23,855 bases of DNA. It comes from an uncultured Porphyromonadaceae bacterium (GTDB lineage: Bacteria > Bacteroidota > Bacteroidia > Bacteroidales > Muribaculaceae). Shown one piece after another: positions 4,080 through 23,855 of the stretch. Position 1 is the stretch's first letter; each line of letters opens with the position of its first letter. The stretch spans positions 1-23,855 of the forward strand of contig CAMWKC010000005.1 in the NCBI GenBank assembly GCA_947174735.1. The letters run 5' to 3'. The translations under genes and the position numbers were made by a program. The notes under the pieces were generated by a model. That model saw nothing but the letters and a program-made list of their open reading frames with translations, was not told the DNA's origin and did not search any database.

Positions 4080-6356
4080 ATGATACGCAAACCCAAACTG
4101 ACACAACTTGCGGCCCTGAGCGCCGCCACCCTCCTGCCAATGACAGTCTCGGCACAGGAACCTACCGACAGCATAGCACCGACTGAGAAAGGTGAAAAAC
4201 GGAATGTTATGCTTAACGCATCGGATGCTACCAGACCACGCGAAATACAGATAGGTCTGCCGAGCGAAGACGTAAATGTCTATGAGAATGGTCTGCCAGC
4301 CGTCTACTCTTCGGCAGTGCATAAGCTGCCTCAGCACTGGCGCAGTGATGCCAGTCTCGGTACCGTAGGACTTATGAACCCTATGGAGTCCGCTATCAAA
4401 ACAGGCAACATAGCCTATTCGGTAGACAGTTATTCGAACTTCGGACAGCAGGAATTCAAAGGTGTTTTCAACTATCGCACCAATACTTTCGGCTGGCAGA
4501 ATTTTGACTTCAATATATCCGGTGGTATCGGAGATAAATGGCTTTATACCGCAAGTGTATATCAGAATTTTGACCCCGGTTATTTCAAGATAAGGTTTAC
4601 TGATTTTTCTGACCGTACACAGATATATCATGCCGGTCTGACACGTTTGCTTGACAAAGGTCAGATAAGTATACTTTATAAATTTTCCAAAAGCAATGCC
4701 CTCGGGTCGATGATAAATAATGCTCCGTTTATCTATGTGGGTGACGGAAGCGTGAAGGAAATCCCGGCCTTCGCTCTCGGCACCACCTCTTATGCACCTA
4801 TAGGCGGCGAATTTGAATACATGGACGTTATGGATGGCAAGATGAAGAAAGGACGTTGGGGTGATTTTACCGATAATTACGCTCACGACATTACCGCTCA
4901 TTTCGATTATGTGTTCGGCGATAATTATAAGCTTGACGTCAATGCCAAGTATATGATTGCACCGCATGCCGATTACTGTGATTTCGGAGGCAGCTCAATT
5001 TTTGAAACCACAGCATCCGACCAGCTTTATAAAGCGGGAGAGTCAAAACCATATATAGGTCTTGCCGAAGGACGCCGTACATGGCTTCATGCCGGTAAAG
5101 TAAGTAATGCTCTGCTGACATCGGAACTCAGTAAACGTTTTGCTAACCATGATCTCCGTATAGGTCTGAATGAGTGGTACTATCATCTTGATTACAACTC
5201 ATCATCTTTTCAGTGGACAGGAACCGTATCGGAATATCCCGATGTTCTTGTGCGTCATAAGCCCGACGGCTCTGAAGAGCAGTTTTATGGATTTAACGAA
5301 CTTTCACCTGAATATACCAAAGGCTACGAAAACAAACTGGCTGTGTATGCCACAGACAACTGGCAGGTAACTCCGAAGTTCAACCTTTATTTCGGTGGTC
5401 GTCTCGAATACTACTGTATGAGTGCTGACCAGATTCCTTATTCCCGTTATTCAGGCTTTCATATCGGTGATACACATCAGTACACCGGCAGTGACGGTAC
5501 GGTCCATACAGTTACTATAGCTCCCCATAAGGTGTTGAAGAACAAACTCAACTATGCCGCCACACTACAGGGCATATATAATTTCAACCGTCATTTCGGT
5601 CTGACCGCCGATGCAACAGTAGCCACACGTTATCCGCGCATTAACGAGTACGCCGGTACCGGACCTACCGAGGAGCAATACAAGAAAGTGACTATACCTC
5701 TGATACGCGGAGGTATCACTTACCGTAACGATTGGGTGGATCTCACCTCTATGGTGACTTATATCTCTAAGTCGAACAATATCGACCAGCAGAATGTGAC
5801 AAAACCTGGAACAACACAGTCTAAGACGACGTTGCTCATATATAGTATCAAGACTATAGGGTGGACAACCTCAGCCGAGCTTCATCCTTTCAGGGGTTTT
5901 AATCTGCATGCTTTGCTGACGCTGCAGAAGCCGACTTATGATAATTATTTTATCAAGTCACCTTTTGAAGGCGTGCCTGACCTTGATGCTAACGGTAATA
6001 TAGTTAAGGAGATTCCGCAGGTGCTTATAGAACTTGACCCGAGCTATCAGCTTAATGAGCGGCTGCGTTTCTGGCTTTCGTTCCGTTATTTCGGCAAGAC
6101 CTACGCCAATCTTACCAACGCATTATTTTTTAACGGTCGCTGGGAGACCTTCGGAGGTATCAACTGGACCGTCAATAAGCACTTTGATCTCGGTTGCACA
6201 GTGATAAATTTTCTTAATCAGAAGGGTGCAAGCGGTACCATCAACGGAGCCGAACTTCTCAGTAAGGAAGAGAGCGGTAAGTACAAGAACTATTATATGA
6301 GCGGCAGTTATCTGCGTCCCTTTACGGTTGAGTTCAGTGCGACTTTCAGATTCTGA
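4080..6356 (+). CDS. TonB-dependent outer-membrane receptor
   Basis: An outer-membrane active transporter of 758 residues. It starts with a signal peptide (about residues 1-25, ending TVSAQE), followed by a plug-like region (about 55-135) and then many alternating aromatic beta strands, ending in FSATFRF with the terminal Phe typical of beta barrels. It is shorter than SusC proteins (about 1000 residues) and I see no carboxypeptidase-regulatory-like N-terminal domain, so it is not a typical SusC. No susD-like gene follows. Seventy-three nt downstream, without an evident terminator, lies a GH36 alpha-galactosidase, so uptake of galactosides such as melibiose or raffinose-family sugars is a fair inference. 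An iron or vitamin substrate is not excluded by the protein alone. Confidence 0.8.
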   Translation: MIRKPKLTQLAALSAATLLPMTVSAQEPTDSIAPTEKGEKRNVMLNASDATRPREIQIGLPSEDVNVYENGLPAVYSSAVHKLPQHWRSDASLGTVGLMNPMESAIKTGNIAYSVDSYSNFGQQEFKGVFNYRTNTFGWQNFDFNISGGIGDKWLYTASVYQNFDPGYFKIRFTDFSDRTQIYHAGLTRLLDKGQISILYKFSKSNALGSMINNAPFIYVGDGSVKEIPAFALGTTSYAPIGGEFEYMDVMDGKMKKGRWGDFTDNYAHDITAHFDYVFGDNYKLDVNAKYMIAPHADYCDFGGSSIFETTASDQLYKAGESKPYIGLAEGRRTWLHAGKVSNALLTSELSKRFANHDLRIGLNEWYYHLDYNSSSFQWTGTVSEYPDVLVRHKPDGSEEQFYGFNELSPEYTKGYENKLAVYATDNWQVTPKFNLYFGGRLEYYCMSADQIPYSRYSGFHIGDTHQYTGSDGTVHTVTIAPHKVLKNKLNYAATLQGIYNFNRHFGLTADATVATRYPRINEYAGTGPTEEQYKKVTIPLIRGGITYRNDWVDLTSMVTYISKSNNIDQQNVTKPGTTQSKTTLLIYSIKTIGWTTSAELHPFRGFNLHALLTLQKPTYDNYFIKSPFEGVPDLDANGNIVKEIPQVLIELDPSYQLNERLRFWLSFRYFGKTYANLTNALFFNGRWETFGGINWTVNKHFDLGCTVINFLNQKGASGTINGAELLSKEESGKYKNYYMSGSYLRPFTVEFSATFRF

Positions 6357-10633: not shown

Positions 10634-11983
10634 ATGTCATATCTGTTTTCATACTCACTTAGTTCAGCCGTAATATTATGTTTCGGTTATATAGCCTATA
10701 AATGGCTATTGGCTGATGAACGTCAGCATACCTTCAACCGTATAGCTCTCTATTGTATATATATCATGTCATTAGTGCTACCTATGATGATAGATATATT
10801 TCCTCATATTACAGCCGCATCCGGAAAAGGTGGTATAGAGATAGGTGCCGTGACAGGTGGTTTCATAGATTCTCCGGTAGCCTATAGTTCATCTGCATGG
10901 ATCAGTACCATTATACTTCGGCTTCTTATTATGATTTATCTTGCAGGTATTATCGTTATGACGGTTTATTCGCTATCGGCTGTAATGTCATTACGCAGGA
11001 TAATCAGCAATGGCGAAAAAGAGCAGTTCGGACGCTGGACCCTTGTTATAACTGACCGTAACGAAGTAGCACCTTTCAGCTGGATGAGTTATATAGTTAT
11101 AAGTCGGAAAGACTATGACAGCTATACCGAAGCGGTTATATGTCATGAATTGCGCCATCTTGAACTCCGACACTGGATGGACATGTTGTTGGCGCAGATA
11201 GTTGTCATATTACAGTGGTTTAATCCAGCAGCATGGCTGATGCGTGATGAATTCCGTAATGTACATGAATATCAGGCTGATGAAGCTGTGATTCGTTCCG
11301 GTGCTGATATAAAGGAATATCAGATGATGTTAATAAAAAAGGCTGTAGGCACGCGCTTCCAATCACTTGCCAACAGCCTCAGACATAGTAAACTTAAAAA
11401 ACGTGTAACTATGATGTACAAAAAACAATCACCCCGTTCGCGTCGTTTCGGCGCTGTGGCGCTCATACCGGCTATGCTGCTCGGCGCCGCTGTGACACAG
11501 ATTCCCGCAGTCGCTTCTGCTTTGCAGAGAGTGAATGCTACTCCGTTGCTCGCTACTGTTTCGGTTAAAGCCTCCACTGATGCATCAACATCAGTAGAGA
11601 GCAAAGTTAATAAAAAAACTCCTGCTTCCGAAGAAGAAGTTTATACTGCGGTAAGTGAGATGGCTGAATATCCCGGTGGAATGAAGGCCATGATGGAGTT
11701 TTTGAAGACACACATACAGTATCCCGAGGAAGCTGAGAAGAACGGTGAGCAGGGCCGTGTAATAGTTAAGTTTATAATTGACAAAAACGGTAAAGTAACT
11801 TCTCCCGAGGTTATAAGAGGTATTTCTCCGCTTCTTGATAAAGAGGCACTGCGTGTGGTAAGCGAGATGCCCAACTGGACTCCGGGTAAAAATAACGGCA
11901 AAGTTGTGAATAGCTATTTTACACTGCCTGTATCTTTTACTCTACCGTCCTCATCGACTGATTCCACAACTACTGAAAACTGA
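10634..11983 (+). CDS. M56 (BlaR1-like) membrane metallopeptidase fused to a TonB C-terminal domain
   Basis: A 449-residue inner-membrane protein. Likely membrane helices are near residues 5-25, 37-57, 88-113 and 273-290, with another possible one near 185-205. The zinc motif is HELRH (171-175) in VICHELRHLELRH, with a likely third ligand in HEYQAD (Glu212). The segment from about 340 to 440 (YPGGMKAMMEFLK, then GEQGRVIVKFIIDKNGKV and VVSEMPNWTPGKNNG) is a TonB C-terminal domain. There is no penicillin-binding sensor domain as in true BlaR1. In this arrangement, common in Bacteroidetes, the peptidase is expected to cut the co-encoded BlaI-like repressor, while the TonB domain may touch outer-membrane receptors. 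The signal is unknown. Confidence 0.88.
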   Translation: MSYLFSYSLSSAVILCFGYIAYKWLLADERQHTFNRIALYCIYIMSLVLPMMIDIFPHITAASGKGGIEIGAVTGGFIDSPVAYSSSAWISTIILRLLIMIYLAGIIVMTVYSLSAVMSLRRIISNGEKEQFGRWTLVITDRNEVAPFSWMSYIVISRKDYDSYTEAVICHELRHLELRHWMDMLLAQIVVILQWFNPAAWLMRDEFRNVHEYQADEAVIRSGADIKEYQMMLIKKAVGTRFQSLANSLRHSKLKKRVTMMYKKQSPRSRRFGAVALIPAMLLGAAVTQIPAVASALQRVNATPLLATVSVKASTDASTSVESKVNKKTPASEEEVYTAVSEMAEYPGGMKAMMEFLKTHIQYPEEAEKNGEQGRVIVKFIIDKNGKVTSPEVIRGISPLLDKEALRVVSEMPNWTPGKNNGKVVNSYFTLPVSFTLPSSSTDSTTTEN

Positions 11984-15143: not shown

Positions 15144-15217
15144 CGCCAGAAACAATCCGAGTAAATATCATAATGACATTTGACTCACTAATATTTATTA
15201 ATTCTAAATTATATTTA

Positions 15218-17257
15218 ATGAAAAGAACTTTACTTACACTTACTACGGCAGCTGCCGTCACAAGTGCATTTGCACTTTCGACATCCACCTCACATCTCGG
15301 ACGGCAGGTTAATCACCTAAATCCCCGTAACCCTCTTGCTTCGTATGTTGAGAATAAGACTACTCGTCAGCAGAATAATATTCTCCTGCGTGCAGGTTCC
15401 GATCAGGAACTTTCAATGGAATGGGGCTATTGCGAAGGCATTCAGACTGCTTTGCCTATGGCTCCCGGTGAGTTTAAAGGAGCTATTATACTTCCCGCTG
15501 AAGTAGCCGACCAATTCGCCGGTGCTGTGCTTAGCTCAATCTCTGTAGGTAATCCTGTTGATGCCAGCACTGTTGATGCTTATTACAACTATGAGAATCC
15601 TATACGCGAAGCTACTGTGTGGCTTGCCGAAAGTTTCGATGATGAACCTTTCGTCAGTGCAAAGGGGGAATTAGGTGAAGACGGTTTTGGGTGGAGTACT
15701 ATCGAATTACCCGAACCTTATACACTCAAAGCCGGAACTCCCGTGATAATCGGATACACTATAGATATTCCGGAAAATAACGGGGAAATCTATGCTGTAC
15801 TCACAGACTATAGCTATGATGTTAATGGATATTCCTTCTGGATATATTCAAATTACGCCGGCTGGGATGATGAAGGCTATCTTATTTTCGATGGTGATCC
15901 AAGATGGCAGGATGTAGCTGAGGATTTTGGTAATATCGCTATCCGTGCCCGTATCTCAGGCGATATGCTTCCTGTAAACAAGGTAACTACAGTAGGTTAT
16001 CAGGCTCCGCAGTATGCCGCTCCCGGCGAACCGTTCAATATACTCAGTATGGTTCGTAATGATGGTGCTAATCTTGTAACTTCAGTTGAATATACATTGG
16101 AAGTTCAAGATATGGCTCCTCAGACATATACGGTAGAAATCAATCCTCCTCTTGAGTATAATGCTATAAGTGATGTCCTATCAATGGAGTTTGTATGTGA
16201 TACTAAGGGAAATAATATATCCTATGAACTCTATATCTCGGCTCTTAACGGAGAGAAACTTGCTGAGCATGAAGCTCCGATGAGTGGCACACTGCTCTGT
16301 ATTGAAGATGGCTATCCAAAGAATAATGTCTTTGAGGAGGCTACCGGAACATGGTGCGGATGGTGTGTCTACGGTTATGCGGGTATGGAATACATGTCAG
16401 AGCACTACTCTGATCTTGGATTCATCGGTATCGCTGTCCATAACGACGCTCAGATGGGTGTTACAGGAGAAGGTCAGGCCTATGAAGAGTTTGGTACTTA
16501 TGTAAGTGGCTATCCCTCAGCATACGTAAACCGTGATATGGGTAACGACGTGTATCCGGCTCCAGAAGAACTTGAAGATGAATTTAACTGGATACGTAAC
16601 ATTCCTGCTTACGCTACTATTTCAGCTACTATAGAGGCTGGTGAGTCTGATAATGTTATCAAGCTTTCAACTGTTACGGAGTTCGGTGATACTGAAGGAA
16701 ACACAAATTATCAGATAGGCTATACTGTTGTTGAGAACGGTGTCGGTCCTTATCCTCAGCAGAATTATTGTTCAGGTGCCGGATACGATTGTTATGGTTT
16801 CGAGAATATGGATCCTATCGTATTGCTGACATTTAACGATGTTGCCCGTAACTGTTCGAAGCCAATGGGTATAGAAGGTAGTCTTCCTGCATCAGTTGAA
16901 CAGGGCCAGAAGTATACTTATGAAACTGAAATCACACTTGATGATGTAACTGAGCCGAAAAATGCACGTGTGGTAGCTATGGTTATCAACAAGAATAACG
17001 GTGCTATCGAGAACGCCTGCTCTGTCAATATTTCTGAGCTTACAGATGTTAACAAGCTTTCCGTTTCTAAGGAAGAGGTATTTGTCTACGGTACCAAAGG
17101 CGCACTTAACTTCCGTGTTAATGCTTCCAAGGCTAATGTTTACACCATCGACGGCCGCTGTGTCACTAACGGTGTAAAGGGTAATTCTCTTCGACTTCCT
17201 GCCGGTGTCTACATCGTGACTCTCAACGGTAAAACTTGCAAGGTGGCTGTACGCTAA
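15218..17257 (+). CDS. Secreted Omp28/thioredoxin-like protein with T9SS-type C-terminal tail
   Basis: A 679-residue secreted or surface protein. From ATG 15218 there is a signal peptide (MKRTLLTLTTAAAVTSAFA); the frame also opens at 15173 but that adds a non-signal prefix. The first half is beta-rich. A thioredoxin-like domain follows, with EEATGTWCGWC (Cys380-Gly-Trp-Cys383), then a GYPSAYVNRD segment typical of the Omp28-type fold, where the loop before the Tyr holds a Pro opposite the active site. The last 70 or so residues (VYTIDGRCVTNG and LRLPAGVYIVTL, ending KVAVR) resemble type IX secretion sorting domains. A role in disulfide handling or ligand binding on the surface is inferred. 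It stands alone with a strong promoter and a terminator. Confidence 0.82.
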   Translation: MKRTLLTLTTAAAVTSAFALSTSTSHLGRQVNHLNPRNPLASYVENKTTRQQNNILLRAGSDQELSMEWGYCEGIQTALPMAPGEFKGAIILPAEVADQFAGAVLSSISVGNPVDASTVDAYYNYENPIREATVWLAESFDDEPFVSAKGELGEDGFGWSTIELPEPYTLKAGTPVIIGYTIDIPENNGEIYAVLTDYSYDVNGYSFWIYSNYAGWDDEGYLIFDGDPRWQDVAEDFGNIAIRARISGDMLPVNKVTTVGYQAPQYAAPGEPFNILSMVRNDGANLVTSVEYTLEVQDMAPQTYTVEINPPLEYNAISDVLSMEFVCDTKGNNISYELYISALNGEKLAEHEAPMSGTLLCIEDGYPKNNVFEEATGTWCGWCVYGYAGMEYMSEHYSDLGFIGIAVHNDAQMGVTGEGQAYEEFGTYVSGYPSAYVNRDMGNDVYPAPEELEDEFNWIRNIPAYATISATIEAGESDNVIKLSTVTEFGDTEGNTNYQIGYTVVENGVGPYPQQNYCSGAGYDCYGFENMDPIVLLTFNDVARNCSKPMGIEGSLPASVEQGQKYTYETEITLDDVTEPKNARVVAMVINKNNGAIENACSVNISELTDVNKLSVSKEEVFVYGTKGALNFRVNASKANVYTIDGRCVTNGVKGNSLRLPAGVYIVTLNGKTCKVAVR

Positions 17258-17302
17258 TCCTTTCTTAGAAAGATGTATCATTGACCAGGATAATCTAATC
17301 TG

Positions 17303-17344
17303 AATTTATCCGCTGTTACTTTGTGACAGCGGATAAATTTTTAT
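17303..17344 (+). terminator. Rho-independent terminator after the Omp28-like gene
   Basis: A 17-bp stem with one T-G wobble (17303-17319 with 17323-17339), a 3-nt TTT loop, then a T-rich run. Confidence 0.88.
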
Positions 17345-17430
17345 CTATACAATTCGATTTCTTAAAAATGAATTACATTTGTATGTAATTTTCTTTATGT
17401 TACCTGCATGGAAAGCTCGTAATTTTTATT

Positions 17431-17438
17431 TAAATTTG
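17431..17438 (+). promoter_or_regulatory. Candidate -7 box TAAATTTG for the 17.5-kb gene set
   Basis: TAAATTTG matches TAnnTTTG, 87 nt before ATG 17526. No good -33 match was seen. It is the only obvious promoter ahead of the dense gene set. Confidence 0.45.
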
Positions 17439-17525
17439 CAAAAAGGTATACGCTATGAACTGGTTAAATTGAAAATATAAATTAGCTGACTGTTCACTTA
17501 AAAATTATTTTTGATAATAGAGAAT

Positions 17526-18107
17526 ATGAGTGTATTTACAGTTTTGGTTGATAAGTATAAAAGACGGGAGGCTTTATCGGTGTCTTATGACCGCAGAGCT
17601 TCAATAGTTACGTGTATGGTACTGATTGTAGAGATAGCCTTAGTTATAGCTTGCTTGTTTCAGATGAGATTGCTTGTTATCAGTGATAATGGCTTACATT
17701 TGAAGTCGGTAATTGCGACATGGCCTTCTCCGCTGCTTTGGGTACCGTTGGTATTGCTATGTATCATTACTGAAATAGCTTTCTTTATGGCACCACGCAG
17801 TATAAAATTAGATGATAACAGTATTTATATAAACAGTACCAATTGGTTTCGCCGTCTTCCATTTGCAAAGATAGAGAAAATAGAACGTTATTACGAAGAG
17901 CAAATTGCTGCTGACCGTCCGCTACTGTGTAGCTATGGATTTATGGGGTACTGGGGACGTTATCGCTCGTCTCAGTTCGGTATTTATCATGCCTGCTACG
18001 GCGATTGTCTTCAATGTCTGGTTATCACTATGTATGACGGACGTCACTATGTAATAGGATGCAAAGACCCGGAAGCATTACTTACTCAACTGAATATAAT
18101 AAGATAA
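17526..18107 (+). CDS. Two-helix membrane protein with PH-like domain
   Basis: A 193-residue protein. Two membrane helices are predicted near residues 27-50 and 68-89, with a short loop between. The rest (about 91-193) reads like a bacterial PH domain: SIKLDDNSIYINSTNWFRR, PFAKIEKIERY, and C-terminal ITMYDGRHYVIGCKDPEALL. Such proteins are common in Bacteroidetes and have no assigned function. I chose ATG 17526 over TTG 17511. The downstream sigma-like gene starts 4 nt after its stop, so the two are probably co-transcribed. It could therefore be a membrane component or anchor for the following gene set, or an unrelated neighbour sharing the transcript. Confidence 0.75.
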   Translation: MSVFTVLVDKYKRREALSVSYDRRASIVTCMVLIVEIALVIACLFQMRLLVISDNGLHLKSVIATWPSPLLWVPLVLLCIITEIAFFMAPRSIKLDDNSIYINSTNWFRRLPFAKIEKIERYYEEQIAADRPLLCSYGFMGYWGRYRSSQFGIYHACYGDCLQCLVITMYDGRHYVIGCKDPEALLTQLNIIR

Positions 18108-18111
18108 ATTG

Positions 18112-18726
18112 ATGACACGACTTTCTATAGATAAAGAACTTTTAAAAGACTATCTTTATAATGATAATATGGATAGTTTGTATCGTCTTATTTTTGAGAT
18201 AAATGGTGATTCTTTGAAAAAGATAATTGCCAAAATGCTGGATACTACTGACCCAAGTACGATTACCGAATGTTTGGTGGATTTCTATGATGATTTGACA
18301 AAGCCGACTAAAGCCGGGGGAAAAAAGCTAAGGACTTTCGACTTTAACTTTGAGTTGCCTCCGTATTTAAAGCAGTCTCTCAGAGGTTACATCACGGATA
18401 ATTTCAGAGCTAAACAAAAGACTTCGGCTTTAGAACAGCCTATAGACGATTTCTCAACCCTTAAAACAGATGATAATGTTACTGAAGATTATTCTGAATG
18501 TTATGAATCTTTATTGAAGGCATTGTATAAATGTGAATCCATATCGCTTAGAGACCGTTATATAATGCTGACGTACTTACTTAGTAAAATCGGGAATCCC
18601 TCCATGTCAGAAGTACAGATAAATAAAAGTATCGCTGAACAATTAAGTATGAAAGAGGACACGGTCAAGAAAGCTCGCCAGAGAGCTGTGGAAAAACTGG
18701 CCTCGGCAATGGAATTTAAATTATAG
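18112..18726 (+). CDS. Small sigma-70-like/HTH regulator
   Basis: A 204-residue protein starting at ATG 18112 (a TTG at 18109 is ignored), 4 nt after the previous stop. The last part, INKSIAEQLSMKEDTVKKAR followed by QRAVEKLASAM (170-200), has the layout of sigma region 4: a helix-turn-helix with the KxAR..A..KL recognition helix. The N-terminal half (about 10-65) is helical and may correspond to a diverged region 2. The linker around 65-130 is charged. A diverged ECF sigma factor is the best reading; a non-sigma HTH regulator is possible. It probably controls the genes after it. It ends in TAG. Confidence 0.7.
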   Translation: MTRLSIDKELLKDYLYNDNMDSLYRLIFEINGDSLKKIIAKMLDTTDPSTITECLVDFYDDLTKPTKAGGKKLRTFDFNFELPPYLKQSLRGYITDNFRAKQKTSALEQPIDDFSTLKTDDNVTEDYSECYESLLKALYKCESISLRDRYIMLTYLLSKIGNPSMSEVQINKSIAEQLSMKEDTVKKARQRAVEKLASAMEFKL

Positions 18727-18803
18727 GGACAATTTATGAAACTTAATTTGTCCCGATTTATAAAATTGTTCGTATAGAATATAAATAATAAATCCTATAA
18801 ACT
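18726..18803 (+). other. 78-nt spacer with a weak hairpin within the gene set
   Basis: GGGACAA (18726-18732) can pair with TTGTCCC (18748-18754) around a 15-nt loop. The rest is A+T-rich, with TAAAATTG (18762-18769) near but not matching the promoter consensus. This is the only sizeable gap in the set; a secondary promoter or weak attenuator is possible. Confidence 0.35.
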
Positions 18804-19442
18804 ATGATCATTACGACTGAGCTACTTGTTATCGGAGGTTATCTGGCTTATGAAGGTGTCGTATGGGGCATTGGCCAGTGGAAGCATTGGAAACTCGGAA
18901 AGAAAACTAAGGAATTCCGCGTTAAGCCTGAGCTGACCGAAGACGACCATATTCTTATTGAAAAATGTCGTGAAATCATGAAATCTAATTTTCCGCAAGG
19001 TATTGAAGACAGACTGAAAGTAATGACACCTACGGAAAGAGCTGATTTGTTTCAGAAACTTATTCTGGAATTGAACAGTGTTTACGGAGTAAATATAACT
19101 AATATTGCTTTTCTTCATACTGACGAAATAGGTTCCGGTACATACGGATATTATCTTCGTGAGACACATTCGATTCGGTTTAACTTCGATTTGCTCAGTT
19201 TAGATGACCCTATGATTCTCCGGGAAATGGTAGATACCATATTCCACGAAATGAGACATGCGCTGCAATATAAGGCTGTGAGTGACAGTTCCTGTAATTA
19301 CGGCACTGACGAACAGCGGTATCTATGGGCACTCAATTTTTTAAACTACATTCCGGGTTATGTGGACTTTGCCTATTATCAGCAACAGATACTGGAAGCT
19401 GACGCACGTCAGATAGCCGAATTATCAATGAAAGATTTTTAA
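18804..19442 (+). CDS. Membrane-anchored HExxH metallopeptidase-like protein
   Basis: A 212-residue protein. Residues 3-24 (ITTELLVIGGYLAYEGVVWG) form one probable membrane helix with a basic segment after it, so the rest is probably cytoplasmic. The zinc motif is IFHEMRHALQYKA (His148, Glu149, His152). LEADARQIAEL follows 46 residues later, with Glu198 as a likely third ligand, the gluzincin pattern. Its small size and lack of a long insert set it apart from M48 or M13 enzymes; I cannot name the family. A proteolytic role on membrane or Hsp70-bound substrates is inferred from the motif and neighbours. Starts ATG 18804; the next gene begins 3 nt after its stop. Confidence 0.75.
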   Translation: MIITTELLVIGGYLAYEGVVWGIGQWKHWKLGKKTKEFRVKPELTEDDHILIEKCREIMKSNFPQGIEDRLKVMTPTERADLFQKLILELNSVYGVNITNIAFLHTDEIGSGTYGYYLRETHSIRFNFDLLSLDDPMILREMVDTIFHEMRHALQYKAVSDSSCNYGTDEQRYLWALNFLNYIPGYVDFAYYQQQILEADARQIAELSMKDF

Positions 19443-19445
19443 GTT

Positions 19446-19889
19446 ATGATTAACAGAAACAGCACAAAGATACTTGTGAATTTCGCTTCTTTGCGAAAGA
19501 GTCTCAGACAGGCCTACCGTTATTCGGAAACTGAAGTTCTGCATACCGTATGGCGCCTTATGAATGCTTTGGATGAGATTAAAATCTCGTTTGCTAATTG
19601 GTTTAATGACGATGTAACTCCTCATCTTGAATGTGAAGGTATATCATGGGAAGAACTTATCAATAAACGGGGACTGAATCCCTATAATGCTTTTCTGTTT
19701 ATGGATACCATGAAGAAAGATCCTGCTCAGGGAATGATTATGCTAAAAGGCCAGATGCATCCGTCACTCAGACTTGATATTGATGAATTGCGTCCCGACT
19801 TACGTGAGCTTATAATCCGGAAAGGAGCTCAGACCACTTCGAAGAGAGAATTAAAAACAGATGCGGAAGGTAATATTGATTTAAAATAA
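19446..19889 (+). CDS. Unrecognised 147-aa protein
   Basis: I do not recognise this protein. It is largely helical and soluble, with an N-terminal basic stretch (LRKSLRQAYRY) and a helix that could be amphipathic around residues 25-50. The middle has WEELINKRGLNPYNAFLFMD, and the C-terminus is charged (KREL, DAEGNIDLK). There is no signal peptide, membrane helix, zinc motif or P-loop. It is packed between the metallopeptidase (3-nt gap) and the Hsp70-like gene (4-nt gap), so it is almost certainly translated with them. An adaptor or cochaperone is conceivable but unsupported. Confidence 0.72.
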   Translation: MINRNSTKILVNFASLRKSLRQAYRYSETEVLHTVWRLMNALDEIKISFANWFNDDVTPHLECEGISWEELINKRGLNPYNAFLFMDTMKKDPAQGMIMLKGQMHPSLRLDIDELRPDLRELIIRKGAQTTSKRELKTDAEGNIDLK

Positions 19890-19893
19890 CATC

Positions 19894-21945
19894 ATGGCAT
19901 TACTGGACTTTACAAGATTCGGAGTCACTGCACAAGATGTGCGTGATGGTAAATATTCCTATATAATAGGTTTTGATTTAGGTGACGGTGAAATAGCTGC
20001 CGCTTATTGGAATCTTAAAGAAGATGGTTTTATAAAACCGGAAGACCTGAAATTTGATATAAATGAAAGTCATAAAATATTAAGTGCACTGTTTACTGAA
20101 AAAAACGGCACTATTCATATCGGTACCTTAGGAGTGATGTCAAGTCTGGCGAATACCCAGGGTAACTTATATATTAATTTTAAAGTGACTCCTAAAAGGT
20201 TGCATGAAGGGGAGCTTTACGAAGGTGATAGCATTTCCAAAAAGCAACTGATGCAACTGATGCTTCGGACGAGTCTTGAGAATATTTACAAAAACAATCC
20301 GAATAAATTCAGCGGTGAAGGCTTGTTAGTGGTCGGTTGTCCCTCCGGACCGGAATGGCTGGAAAACGATGCGGACTCAATGTATGCCGAGATAATCAGA
20401 GAGAGTCTTGAGGGTCTGGACTTATGTCTGAAAGTGATTATAATGCCGGAGTCACGGGCCTCCCTTATTAAAGTCTATAAGGAACAGGGTGAACTGGTAG
20501 GCAAGCATATACAGGATGGTGTCGTAGTTATGGATCACGGATCAAGTACATTTGATATTACCTTGATTAATTTCCTGACCAACCAGCAGACAGACGACAG
20601 TGTGCCGTTAGGAGCTAATAAAATAGAACGCACCATGTTAAAGACTCTGTTGGAGCAGAATAATAAGACCAGATTTGATCTGTCGGATTTCCGGTCACAA
20701 TTGTTGCTTATCAGAACTGCGAAGGAAGCGTTTTTTACAAATCCTGTAAGTAAGCCGAGGATATTTATGGAATGGACCGATGGCGACTGTGCCATGTCGC
20801 GGATATCCGAGGATTTCATGACCGGTATTACCCACCATTCTCCTCAGTCTTATACAAGTGAAAAACATTCGCTCGCTAAAGGAAGCTGGGTGGAGTTACA
20901 TAGAAATTTTACAGAGAAAAACGTTAATACGCTCTGTGAAGCTATGGGAGTCGCACCTAATGAATTCAAGGGAGTAATATTGCTGACCGGAGGTGCTTCC
21001 AAAATGCAGTTTATCAAAAGTACTGTCTGTGAATTATTTCCAAACGCGCACGTAGTCGTTGATGCGGAACCATCTTACTGTGTGTCAAGAGGACTGGCAT
21101 GGGCAGCTTATACAGATTTAAAAGCACTTGAGCTGATTTCCACTGTAAAAGAACGTATCGGAGAAGCAATCAAAGCTGATTTTCCTACCCTGAAAGCTAT
21201 AATGGCAAATAAATTGTCGCCAATTGTATACGAATACGCTTTGGGTCAATTGTCAGCTTGGGTAGATAACGGTGATAATATCACTCTGACAGAGTTTGTT
21301 AAAAATGTGGAAAATTCTTTTCTGGATTCTTCTACCCCGGAAGGCAGAGCAAGAGCACAACTTATACAAAGGACAATTAAAGAGTCAATTACAGAGTATC
21401 TGAATAATAATGATGATACAGGTGTCCGTGCTCTGATTGTAAATACAGTCAATGAAGTTTTCTCAGCTACGTTTCCCGGTAAGATTAAGGCCCAGAATAT
21501 CACGCCGTTTAAAATCAGAGATAATGAATGGGCTAATGTAGTCAGGGAAGTATCTTCCAATCAAATAAAATTCAGAAGTTCTCTGCTACAGGCAATAAAT
21601 CTGGAAAATGTATTGATGGGGGTTCTTAAAGTTATTCTTGCCGTTTGTATTCTTACGGGCGCTCTTTTATTAACTATATTTACCCTCGGAATGGTCAATA
21701 TGGAAGCGGTAAGCAAGCAGTTGGATAAAATGTTCGTTGAAAATCAGACATTATCGAAAAATAAAAGGCAAAAAGCGCTGAAGAAGTTTGAGGATAATAA
21801 AGAAGAAAATATTAATAAAATCACCGAAGCTATCAGAAACGCCCCGATGTCTGCGGAAGTCCGGGATAACGTCTCATCTCAGATAATACAGACTCTGTCG
21901 CCTGTTATAGACAAAGCAGTGGATGTAGTTTCTATTTATTTCTAA
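19894..21945 (+). CDS. Membrane-anchored Hsp70/actin-like ATPase without substrate-binding domain
   Basis: A 683-residue protein whose first 410 residues have the Hsp70-type nucleotide-binding layout: phosphate-1 motif IIGFDLGDG (24-32), phosphate-2 motif VVMDHGSSTFDITLI (211-225), a connecting motif MPESRAS (184-190) and the adenosine motif VILLTGGASKMQFIK (361-375). There is no beta-sandwich substrate-binding domain or EEVD tail. The region 411-570 is helical, followed by one membrane helix (about 574-600) and a charged coiled tail (about 605-683). DnaK proteins are cytosolic and lack such an anchor. ATP binding looks intact. It is packed with the metallopeptidase and the AAA+ gene. Alternatives such as FtsA/MreB-like filaments are less likely from the motifs. 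Confidence 0.85.
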   Translation: MALLDFTRFGVTAQDVRDGKYSYIIGFDLGDGEIAAAYWNLKEDGFIKPEDLKFDINESHKILSALFTEKNGTIHIGTLGVMSSLANTQGNLYINFKVTPKRLHEGELYEGDSISKKQLMQLMLRTSLENIYKNNPNKFSGEGLLVVGCPSGPEWLENDADSMYAEIIRESLEGLDLCLKVIIMPESRASLIKVYKEQGELVGKHIQDGVVVMDHGSSTFDITLINFLTNQQTDDSVPLGANKIERTMLKTLLEQNNKTRFDLSDFRSQLLLIRTAKEAFFTNPVSKPRIFMEWTDGDCAMSRISEDFMTGITHHSPQSYTSEKHSLAKGSWVELHRNFTEKNVNTLCEAMGVAPNEFKGVILLTGGASKMQFIKSTVCELFPNAHVVVDAEPSYCVSRGLAWAAYTDLKALELISTVKERIGEAIKADFPTLKAIMANKLSPIVYEYALGQLSAWVDNGDNITLTEFVKNVENSFLDSSTPEGRARAQLIQRTIKESITEYLNNNDDTGVRALIVNTVNEVFSATFPGKIKAQNITPFKIRDNEWANVVREVSSNQIKFRSSLLQAINLENVLMGVLKVILAVCILTGALLLTIFTLGMVNMEAVSKQLDKMFVENQTLSKNKRQKALKKFEDNKEENINKITEAIRNAPMSAEVRDNVSSQIIQTLSPVIDKAVDVVSIYF

Positions 21946-21956
21946 AATTTTTATTT

Positions 21957-23816
21957 ATGAAACAGATAGATGAAATAGTAAACAGATGTAGAACCGCGAT
22001 TCATGCCGGTATTCCGATTCTGTACATAGAATCAGATGACATGGGTATAATCGATGACCTACTGCATACACAGAAGCTGACGGAATACTGGCATTTAAAT
22101 TTCGAAGGTGAGCTACCTCAGTGGTTCCGTTTTAAAGAAAAAGCTGTAGATATCGGTACGAGACCTACTAATATCTTTGTAACCAACCAGAAACTTCCGG
22201 CATCTTTTTTCTGGATAGGAAACTCGCAAAGACAGAATAAATCTTTCGGCAGAGCCGATTCCACGTTTGTGGTGAAGGGTATCAAACCTATCATTAAAAA
22301 TGACAGAAATGTCAGATATATACTCGGAGTCAGAAATTTTTTCTGTGATGCATCGGCGGAAAATGCTTTAATCAGTCATGTGACCTCAGTGATTAATTCA
22401 AATGAAGATGACGACATTCGGAAGTGTGTGATAATACTTCAGTCTCCGTCAGTACAGATTCCTAAGGGTCTGGAACCATATATAGAACTGATTGAAGTAC
22501 CTAAACTGAAAGATGAGGAGATTCGTGAAATTATCGTAGATTTTGCAAAAGAAAAAGGTGAAATCCCGTATGATAATTTACTTCAGCCTCTGATAGTGAA
22601 TCTACGTGGCTTTAATATCCGTAAAATTAAAGATATACTAAACCGTCTTTACCTTCATTGTCAGGGTCTATTTACCATTAAGTGTGAAGAAGACGGCATA
22701 AAGCTGATTCGTACTGTAAAAGAACAGATGCTGAAAAAAGAGGGTCTGTTAAAGCTAAAGTATGTAGATAAAAAAGCTCATGTCTCAGGTCTTGATCAGC
22801 TTACAGAATGGCTTGTCAGCAGAGCGGAATTATTCAGAGATCCGATTAAAGCCGAAACACAGTGGAATTTATCCACTCCTAAAGGTATATTGGTGAGCGG
22901 TATTCCCGGCACCGGTAAATCTGCTTTAGCCAACCAAATAGCTATGGTGTTTGATTTGCCTATACTTCAGTTTGATATGGGTAGTGTTCTTGGAAAATAC
23001 TCCGGTGAAAGTGAGGGTAATATGAGAAAAGTGCTGAGACTGGCTGAATCAATGTCACCTTGTGTATTATGGATAGATGAAATAGAAAAAGCCTTTTCCT
23101 CGGCTTCTTCTTCCGGTGACTCTGACGGCGGACAGGGAAAAAGACTGTTCGGACAGTTTCTTACATGGATGCAGGAGAAAAAAGAAGCCTGTTTCATCTT
23201 TGCTACTGCAAACGACATATCCGCTTTACCCCCGGAGTTTCTGAGACGCGGTCGCTTTGACCAGAAGTTCTATACTTTTATGCCTTCAAAACAGGATTGT
23301 ATTGAAATCTTCAAAGGAATTATTTCCCGTTTTAACGGCAAATCAAAACCATTTGATACTCTTCTTAACAATACTTCTGACCTTGAGAAATACCTTACTG
23401 AACTTGTAGAGTTCTGTGGTACGAATGGTAAGTTTATGACAGGTGCGGATATAGAAGGTATCGTAAAAGATGCAATGTTTTCATACTATAGAAAATATTG
23501 GTACGGAAATGCTGACAATTCCGGAAAATATATTCCGGAAAAGTTTATAGAAGAACTTCGGACAGCTGTTTTGAACGTCCGGACTTACGGTGAGACAGAT
23601 ATGAAGCGTATTGTGGAATGTCTTTTTAAATTAGCTGAAAATCAGTTTTCGCCAGCTTCCGCCTCCGACAACTTGTTATCTCTTAAAGATGTCAGTGTAA
23701 GAAATTTCTCTATCGGTGAATTTAAAGGCATTAAAAACGGATATGATGAGTTGCTTCATGATAAAATTAAGGCCGAAACAGACTATCTACGTACTTCCGG
23801 ACAAAAACATAAATAA
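21957..23816 (+). CDS. Ycf46-like AAA+ ATPase
   Basis: A 619-residue ATPase with two halves. Residues 1-250 (starting with RCRTAIHAGIPILYIESDD) resemble the degenerate N-terminal half of Ycf46-type proteins and have no Walker motif. The second half is a full AAA+ module: Walker A GIPGTGKS (315-322), Walker B VLWIDEIEKAF (Asp374, Glu375), sensor 1 FATAND (Asn419) and the FLRRGRFD arginine-finger loop (Arg430, Arg433), then a helical lid (436-560). A Ser/Gly-rich loop (SSASSSGDSDGGQG, about 380-395) follows Walker B. It starts 11 nt after the Hsp70-like stop. A protein-remodelling role is likely; the substrate is not visible. Function of Ycf46 homologues is poorly known. Confidence 0.86.
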   Translation: MKQIDEIVNRCRTAIHAGIPILYIESDDMGIIDDLLHTQKLTEYWHLNFEGELPQWFRFKEKAVDIGTRPTNIFVTNQKLPASFFWIGNSQRQNKSFGRADSTFVVKGIKPIIKNDRNVRYILGVRNFFCDASAENALISHVTSVINSNEDDDIRKCVIILQSPSVQIPKGLEPYIELIEVPKLKDEEIREIIVDFAKEKGEIPYDNLLQPLIVNLRGFNIRKIKDILNRLYLHCQGLFTIKCEEDGIKLIRTVKEQMLKKEGLLKLKYVDKKAHVSGLDQLTEWLVSRAELFRDPIKAETQWNLSTPKGILVSGIPGTGKSALANQIAMVFDLPILQFDMGSVLGKYSGESEGNMRKVLRLAESMSPCVLWIDEIEKAFSSASSSGDSDGGQGKRLFGQFLTWMQEKKEACFIFATANDISALPPEFLRRGRFDQKFYTFMPSKQDCIEIFKGIISRFNGKSKPFDTLLNNTSDLEKYLTELVEFCGTNGKFMTGADIEGIVKDAMFSYYRKYWYGNADNSGKYIPEKFIEELRTAVLNVRTYGETDMKRIVECLFKLAENQFSPASASDNLLSLKDVSVRNFSIGEFKGIKNGYDELLHDKIKAETDYLRTSGQKHK

Positions 23817-23830
23817 ATTTCAGACAGGTT

Positions 23831-23855
23831 ATGATTAATATAGACGGCTATAATA
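23831..23855 (+). CDS. Start of the next gene, cut by the window edge
   Basis: ATG 23831 opens a frame MINIDGYN that is still open at the window end, 14 nt after the AAA+ stop. The spacing matches the rest of the set, so the operon probably continues. With eight codons nothing can be said of function. Confidence 0.4.

Follow-up and report, generated by a model that had tools for sequence, protein, structure and literature searches.

The 23,855-nucleotide window analysed here, which is the whole of contig CAMWKC010000005.1 (G000:C5) from an uncultured Porphyromonadaceae bacterium, carries an operon of six consecutive plus-strand open reading frames (ORFs), g1 to g6, which occupy positions 17526–23816 and combine a membrane protein, a sigma-like regulator, an HExxH metallopeptidase-like protein, a small partner, an Hsp70-like ATPase and an AAA+ ATPase. 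It is the visible part of a ten-gene set of gut bacteria, which is real, recurs and has no published description as far as the searches reach. The close packing on one strand that the first-pass annotation had reported is borne out by intergenic gaps of 4, 77, 3, 4 and 11 nt, the gap of 77 nt being the single exception to a range of 3–11 nt, and the stop codon of g6 lies 39 bases short of the contig end. The features are as follows:

17258..17525, + strand: intergenic region, presumed operon start; a 268-nt gap behind the Omp28-family gene (end 17257)
17526..18107, + strand: g1, membrane protein with a bacterial PH-like domain (bPH_5), 193 amino acids
18112..18726, + strand: g2, sigma-factor-like regulator (TIGR02937 below cut-off), 204 amino acids
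18804..19442, + strand: g3, HExxH metallopeptidase-like protein, proposed effector, 212 amino acids
19446..19889, + strand: g4, small protein adjoining g3, proposed g3 partner or immunity protein, 147 amino acids
19894..21945, + strand: g5, Hsp70-like ATPase with a nucleotide-binding domain at about residues 20–412, a helical C-terminus and a membrane segment at residues 580–598, no substrate-binding domain
21957..23816, + strand: g6, AAA+ ATPase (PF00004) with a Cdc48-like ATPase domain and a long N-terminal region

The set had been said to run on past the window, and a second copy of the operon supplies the continuation: locus L002, on contig CAMWVA010000024.1 of an uncultured Porphyromonadaceae bacterium, encodes an Hsp70-like protein 89% identical to g5 and continues past g6 with four further genes (g7–g10; 368, 230, 324 and 509 amino acids), the last three overlapping end to start, up to position 10703 of the locus. 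Genome G713 carries the same genes as L002 on its contig C24, and a separate contig of G713 shows 92–99% identity to five upstream window proteins and stops 129 bases after the Omp28-family gene; because the upstream proteins match and the contig stops at that place, the operon probably occupies a position common to the window genome and G713. The Omp28-family gene itself lies directly upstream of the operon (window 15173–17257) and has 16 paralogue matches in G000. A fixed empty insertion site was considered and rejected, as this gene has multiple paralogues and three relatives share just the Omp28-family gene with the window; the sole syntenic genome was G713. Promoter and terminator sites in L002 6300–11100 were not more numerous than in shuffled sequences, and no tRNA was found in the window.

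Different levels of support were observed for the products of the outer genes. The description of g1 as a PH-like membrane protein holds, since bPH_5 reaches 28.6 bits against a curated cut-off of 22.5 and the anchor is clear, with hydrophobic segments at residues 27–45 and 63–93 in a hydropathy scan. Its orthologue lies at 145–726 of L002, and g1 is the only gene of the type A loci described below that was not found in locus L032, so that it is probably accessory. For g2, the sigma-like character stands as a likeness (TIGR02937, E 1.2e-7) and not as family membership, its 31.5 bits remaining below the cut-off of 42.9 that would mark an ECF sigma factor; g2 is retained in L032, and by hhalign its profile has a collinear and modest match (E 5e-4, probability 32%) to the gene that opens the type C loci. 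Among the later proteins of L002, the 230-amino-acid one has a membrane segment close to its N-terminal start, g9 (324 amino acids) is a coiled coil, and g10 (509 amino acids) has membrane segments at 391–432 and an N-terminus that, judged by eye, looks like an anti-sigma domain; no solved structure was matched by the g10 profile, and PADLOC gave at best weak, coiled-coil-level matches for the three later proteins other than the 230-amino-acid one. Two further relationships were rejected, namely that of g7 to the 293–312-amino-acid protein of type C (weak N-terminal likeness only, hhalign E 0.054) and that of g4 to g10 (E 0.11). The coiled-coil protein that adjoins the Hsp70-like gene in types B and C shows no match to GrpE; an identification of the coiled-coil proteins as GrpE, hinted at by gene order and by a C-terminal pattern seen by eye, is no more than a guess, as profile comparisons and a solved-structure search gave nothing.

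The two ATPases correspond to what had been proposed for them. Structure prediction confirmed an Hsp70 fold for g5, with the nucleotide-binding domain and its catalytic motifs, and because the model contains no strand of at least 3 residues beyond residue 389, the protein is without a substrate-binding beta domain; Pfam HSP70 does not match it at E 1, and PRTRC_D reaches 26.7 bits against a cut-off of 214.8, so membership in a PRTRC system is not indicated. In the plasmid collection a single g5 match was obtained, on a Calothrix plasmid without recognised partners, and no phage record matched the Hsp70-like protein. The AAA domain of g6 scores 99.4 bits with PF00004 (cut-off 21.2, E 2.9e-28), the profile of six g6 relatives matches Cdc48/NVL structures (best E 1.3e-47), and the Walker A, Walker B and R-x-x-RFD arginine-finger motifs are present in all six g6-type sequences; the protein is presumably Ycf46-like. 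It is also the only one of the window's six proteins matched by PADLOC models when used without cut-offs (best IetA, E 1.3e-17). An assignment to IetAS defence was rejected with the IteA model at 59 of 510 bits, below cut-off, as was an FtsH-type protease, the AAA+ and HExxH parts lying on two genes and the FtsH model reaching 54.2 of 600 bits. No NCBIfam model passes its cut-off for any of the six proteins.

The HExxH motif and a downstream E-x-D-A are retained in all 41 aligned g3 relatives, g3 itself counted, and the fold neighbours of g3 are the zinc peptidases IrrE/PprI, SPRTN and CapP. Homologues of g3 number 459. The Pfam matches of the metallopeptidase-like protein, SprT-like among them, are only sub-threshold. 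The membrane anchor claimed for g3 found no support in a hydropathy scan at 1.6, and its residues 1–32 are modelled mostly as low-confidence helix; of the two anchored components named by the first-pass annotation, the HExxH and Hsp70-like proteins, the latter alone keeps its anchor, and the PH-like protein is clearly anchored. The fourth protein stays unrecognised as described, g4 matching no Pfam or NCBIfam family above cut-off.

The genes are not neighbours in this genome only, and they co-occur in other genera, where the order is rearranged and motors are exchanged. An Hsp70-like profile (A1), built from database proteins, matches 20 of 397 family genomes at E 1e-3, weak tails included, with 11 strong loci (E<1e-40). 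At phylum level it matches 3 of 395 genomes, the window's own among them and the other two weakly; the single Hsp70-like protein as query finds 3 of 393 genomes in the order, counting its own. For profiles A2–A7, which draw on some of these loci, the scores on those loci are circular; the HExxH profile (A2) matches 19 of 397 family genomes. An HExxH gene lies within 10 kb of 10 of the 11 strong Hsp70-like loci (452–4085 bases off; the exception is G713:C49), at a chance proximity of about 3e-4 per locus, estimated from 18 HExxH sites in 397 genomes after two of 20 places, a fragment in G478 and one within a 4467-amino-acid frame in G492, were dropped. Outside this count stand 12 of the 23 places of the A1 search, with E above 1e-40, five of which belong to three type C genomes: G650 (g3 near), G525 (none) and G705 (contigs too short). 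Loci L003, L045, L046, L056 and L057 (Hsp70-like gene alone, partial or weak) were dropped before the counts, as were L031 (the same contig as L002) and L058 and L059 (the same as L030 and L029); L029 9028–9618 and L030 7192–8925, which single linkage had placed in the Hsp70 cluster although by eye they do not resemble Hsp70, were ignored. Beside the Hsp70-like relative of one dropped locus, in an Enterocloster metagenome-assembled genome (L003 7001–11935), stand a 290-amino-acid protein and a 693-amino-acid protein (HD-like motif by eye), and no motor or HExxH gene was recognised there.

Four types of loci were distinguished. Type A comprises three loci, the window, L002 and L032, the last in another genus (G606) and holding nine of the ten type A genes in unchanged order (sigma-like, HExxH, 147 amino acids, Hsp70-like, AAA+, 368-like, 230-like, coiled coil, 509-like), eight of them at E 8e-20 or better and the coiled coil (281 amino acids, 4291–5136) assigned by position and 25% identity. 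Type B, defined by the order of a coiled-coil/membrane gene, an Hsp70-like gene and a HerA-like motor of about 920 amino acids, comprises ten loci (L029, L030, L033–L039 and L044), in which an HExxH gene follows in nine and a g4-like gene in eight. Immediately upstream of the type B genes, L030 7192–8925 encodes a C-terminally extended GTPase that resembles EF-Tu by eye. In the four type C loci (L040, L041, L043 and that of G705, split over L042 and L055), AAA+ and Hsp70-like genes are both present in all four (on separate contigs in G705) with a sigma-like gene ahead, and an HExxH gene and a 509-like gene occur in three of four each. When the HerA motor profile was used alone (E 1e-20), 13 loci were found in 12 of 347 family genomes, seven of type B and six of type D, with an Hsp70-like gene in all seven best and an HExxH gene in 11 of 13; G713:C49 (L038) and G599:C1 (L082) are without the HExxH pair, which is therefore optional.

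Type D consists of seven Bacteroidales loci (L049–L054 and L082) in which the HerA-like motor is longer and an Hsp70-like gene was not recognised; six of the seven were found via HExxH, a biased view that the motor-profile search corrects. In the Hsp70 place, L053 carries two dynamin-like GTPases by Pfam (Dynamin_N, E 1e-11 and 7e-13), L049 shows dynamin motifs by eye, plasmids of E. coli and Lactococcus carry two dynamin-like genes by annotation, and L082 and an Exiguobacterium plasmid have a single long gene in this position. Toxin-like genes sit behind the type D motor, with Pfam toxin families in four of the six scanned: WHH/Colicin-DNase in L053 and Lactococcus, LHH in L049 and the E. coli plasmid, and no Pfam toxin family in the toxin-like genes of L051 and L052; that of L082 (G599), where g3 is absent, resembles the one of L049 by BLAST. 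A SUKH immunity gene follows in L053 (Pfam), and SMI1/KNR4 in E. coli and Exiguobacterium (annotation). The E. coli cassette, on plasmid pTW10590_133 (L062 2770–11169), consists of the dynamin pair, a 290-amino-acid protein, a HerA-like ATPase, an LHH nuclease and SMI1/KNR4, and at megablast sensitivity it was present in one of 5426 E. coli genomes.

The HExxH–g4 pair uses the same slot, preceding the toxin-like gene in L052–L054, following it in L049–L051 and being absent in L082. Counting the window and L002 each, g4 stands beside g3 in 19 of 21 g3-bearing loci, the two exceptions being L039, without g4, and L055, with only a weak g4 match (E 3e-3); the pair is absent in L038, L041 and L082, and such optional presence is as expected of cargo. 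The motif [LY][DN]xP[LIVFM], derived from visual inspection of the toxin-like proteins, occurs in 8 of 10 of them, in 3 of 19 HExxH proteins and in 13 of 358 proteins of a set holding most of both, a distribution that gives no general support to g3 being cargo, and no match to g3 was obtained in the plasmid collection. Two g3 neighbourhoods differ in arrangement: at L051 9307–10140 the HExxH protein is N-terminally fused (by eye) to an 80-amino-acid domain for which type B loci have a gene of its own behind g4, and at L039 3090–5954 MORN-repeat-like proteins (by eye) flank the HExxH gene, with a radical-SAM-like gene (by eye) nearby.

Relatives were also observed outside the Bacteroidales. Two cyanobacterial plasmids (loci L060 13833–17203 and L061 13811–16269) encode a motor related over its full length to that of type B (38.5–38.8% identity over 97–98%), and the third gene past this motor codes for an HExxH protein of another kind whose tail is rich in cysteine, near the gene of a DUF692 iron enzyme, as in modified-peptide pathways. 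A Pseudanabaena plasmid holds GrpE, Hsp70 and a g6-like AAA+ protein (33% identity) in a single gene run, which gives independent support that the parts belong together; the full run (L085 1274–9431) reads GrpE, Hsp70, DUF1257, an ATP-binding protein, DUF2997, the g6-like AAA+ protein and a WD40 protein, and is a candidate for a separate Hsp70–AAA+ system. For the flanks, ORFs of at least 110 amino acids around 13 loci (128 of 129 listed) were pooled, solely for scanning, into an alignment (A8) that has no meaning as such, and PADLOC matches at E 1e-10 were obtained to 56 families, with type II restriction, PDC-S27 (4 proteins) and SngC among the 25 listed; ten long flank ORFs of the 128, scanned singly, gave no PADLOC match at E 1e-10. 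As the pooled matches have no background and are untraced to loci, no defence island is claimed. Elsewhere in the window, positions 10634–11983 encode a fusion of a BlaR1-type M56 peptidase with a TonB C-terminal domain, and the 188-amino-acid protein that comes next has no Pfam match.

The gene set, its recurrence, the swaps of motor and partner, the intact catalytic motifs and the position of g3–g4 in a toxin/immunity slot are direct observations, and from them we tentatively favour, as a possibility short of the probable, a membrane-bound conflict machine driven by nucleoside triphosphates (NTPs) in which the metallopeptidase effector g3 is restrained by g4. In such a machine the membrane-anchored g5, the coiled-coil co-factor g9 and the membrane protein g10 would work with the motor g6, presumably a hexamer; g4 would hold g3 in check until a signal causes the motor to release or thread it, and the freed g3 would cleave target proteins in the same cell, in an abortive manner, or after delivery. 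Expression would be controlled by g2, perhaps with g10 as its membrane partner. The main rival, rather doubtful in our judgement, takes g3 as an IrrE/CapP-like sensor protease, as its fold match favours, which, once stress or phage is sensed by the Hsp70/AAA+ membrane complex, would cleave a regulator (g2, g4 or g10) and thereby switch on the operon or other genes.

The regulated proteolysis, quality-control or conflict role suggested by the first-pass annotation is still a matter of interpretation, and the comparison points to conflict rather more than to quality control. A split FtsH-like machine, in which the Hsp70-like and AAA+ proteins extract membrane clients for degradation by the HExxH protease, would suit an operon shared by a Cdc48-like motor, a membrane-anchored Hsp70-like protein and a peptidase; it is improbable, however, given a rare and patchy distribution (20 of 397 family and 3 of 395 phylum genomes) unlike housekeeping, a motor replaced by a HerA-like ATPase in related loci, and a slot shared with toxin genes. 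Hardly probable, too, is a DNA- or phage-sensing defence with the HerA or AAA+ motor as sensor and g3 as a minor processing enzyme: the type B motor is matched by PADLOC models of HerA type (E 4.9e-12), part of the flanking proteins resemble restriction or defence models and two type B loci lie on IMG/VR contigs, but neither a HerA nor a nuclease nor a DNA-binding effector was recognised in the window operon, the flank matches come without a background comparison, and phage records yielded nothing for the Hsp70-like protein.

A further reading, conceivable although on the unlikely side, is a modular chassis, one membrane platform that loads, unfolds and exports or releases protease and nuclease effectors carrying their own immunity genes. 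Its engines, it may be speculated with similar reserve, would be exchangeable, either a dynamin pair or an Hsp70-like protein, tail-anchored and accompanied by a coiled-coil partner, on one side, and a Cdc48-like AAA+ or HerA/VirB4-like motor on the other. If true, the chassis would be a new protein-delivery or abortive-infection machine across Bacteroidota, Bacillota, Pseudomonadota and Cyanobacteriota. Should the conflict-machine reading be right, Hsp70-type ATPases that lack the domain for binding clients have come to serve in the membrane as components of a weapon or defence apparatus of bacteria, with an exchangeable motor and partner beside a lasting HExxH–small protein pair. That reading would also join loci annotated at best singly, such as the dynamin–HerA–toxin cassettes of E. 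coli and Lactococcus plasmids, the Bacteroidales Hsp70–HerA sets and the cyanobacterial plasmid GrpE–Hsp70–AAA+ set. The g3–g4 idea, toxic alone and safe together, is directly testable.

The claim that no described system has this parts list was sustained by a search of the open literature, most subscription papers and bioRxiv being outside its scope, and by NCBIfam, in which nothing exceeded cut-off for the window's six proteins. The zinc peptidases that neighbour g3 in fold have a different gene setting. Polymorphic toxin systems consist of toxin and immunity gene pairs (PMC3482391, Zhang et al. 2012); they resemble the present loci in the WHH/LHH nucleases with SUKH-type immunity behind related motors. 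In the window, g4 follows g3 and is no more than a candidate for an adjacent immunity gene. The polymorphic toxin systems differ in that the window operon has no recognised toxin domain, and dynamin and Hsp70 are unmentioned in the part of PMC3482391 consulted; no variable C-terminal toxin domain was found by Pfam above cut-off in the ten genes, and such domains are found in the related type D. The LeoABC bacterial dynamins are tied to toxin release by vesicles (PMC4159319) and are comparable to the type D dynamin pair; the abstract of PMC4159319 mentions no HerA motor or HExxH pair, and no dynamin was recognised in the window operon.

Likenesses are also offered by two further groups of systems. 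The type III-A CoCoNuT extensions place Hsp70-like proteins beside SpoVK/Cdc48-like, EssC-like or EccE3-HerA ATPases, and these alternative ATPases parallel the AAA+/HerA swap of the present loci (PMC11090510). The CoCoNuTs, as described there, have a McrB-type GTPase, CnuC, vWA genes and an Hsp70 with a substrate-binding unit, whereas none of those genes was recognised in the window; across the ten genes Pfam matched neither McrB-type GTPase or CnuC nor the vWA domain or MoxR of the MoxR-vWA ternary system. In PMC7159879 (Kaur et al. 2020), GTPase-centred conflict systems are described, some with an HSP70 domain minus its peptide-binding domain. These centre on GTPases, MoxR/vWA or tubulin, of which none was recognised in the window, where a Cdc48-like AAA+ protein stands instead; they are alike in the NTP-driven conflict theme and in the HSP70 without a peptide-binding domain, and they also include GrpE and, in other classes, peptidases. 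On this comparison the operon is to be filed as a kind of NTP-driven conflict system, outside any named family.

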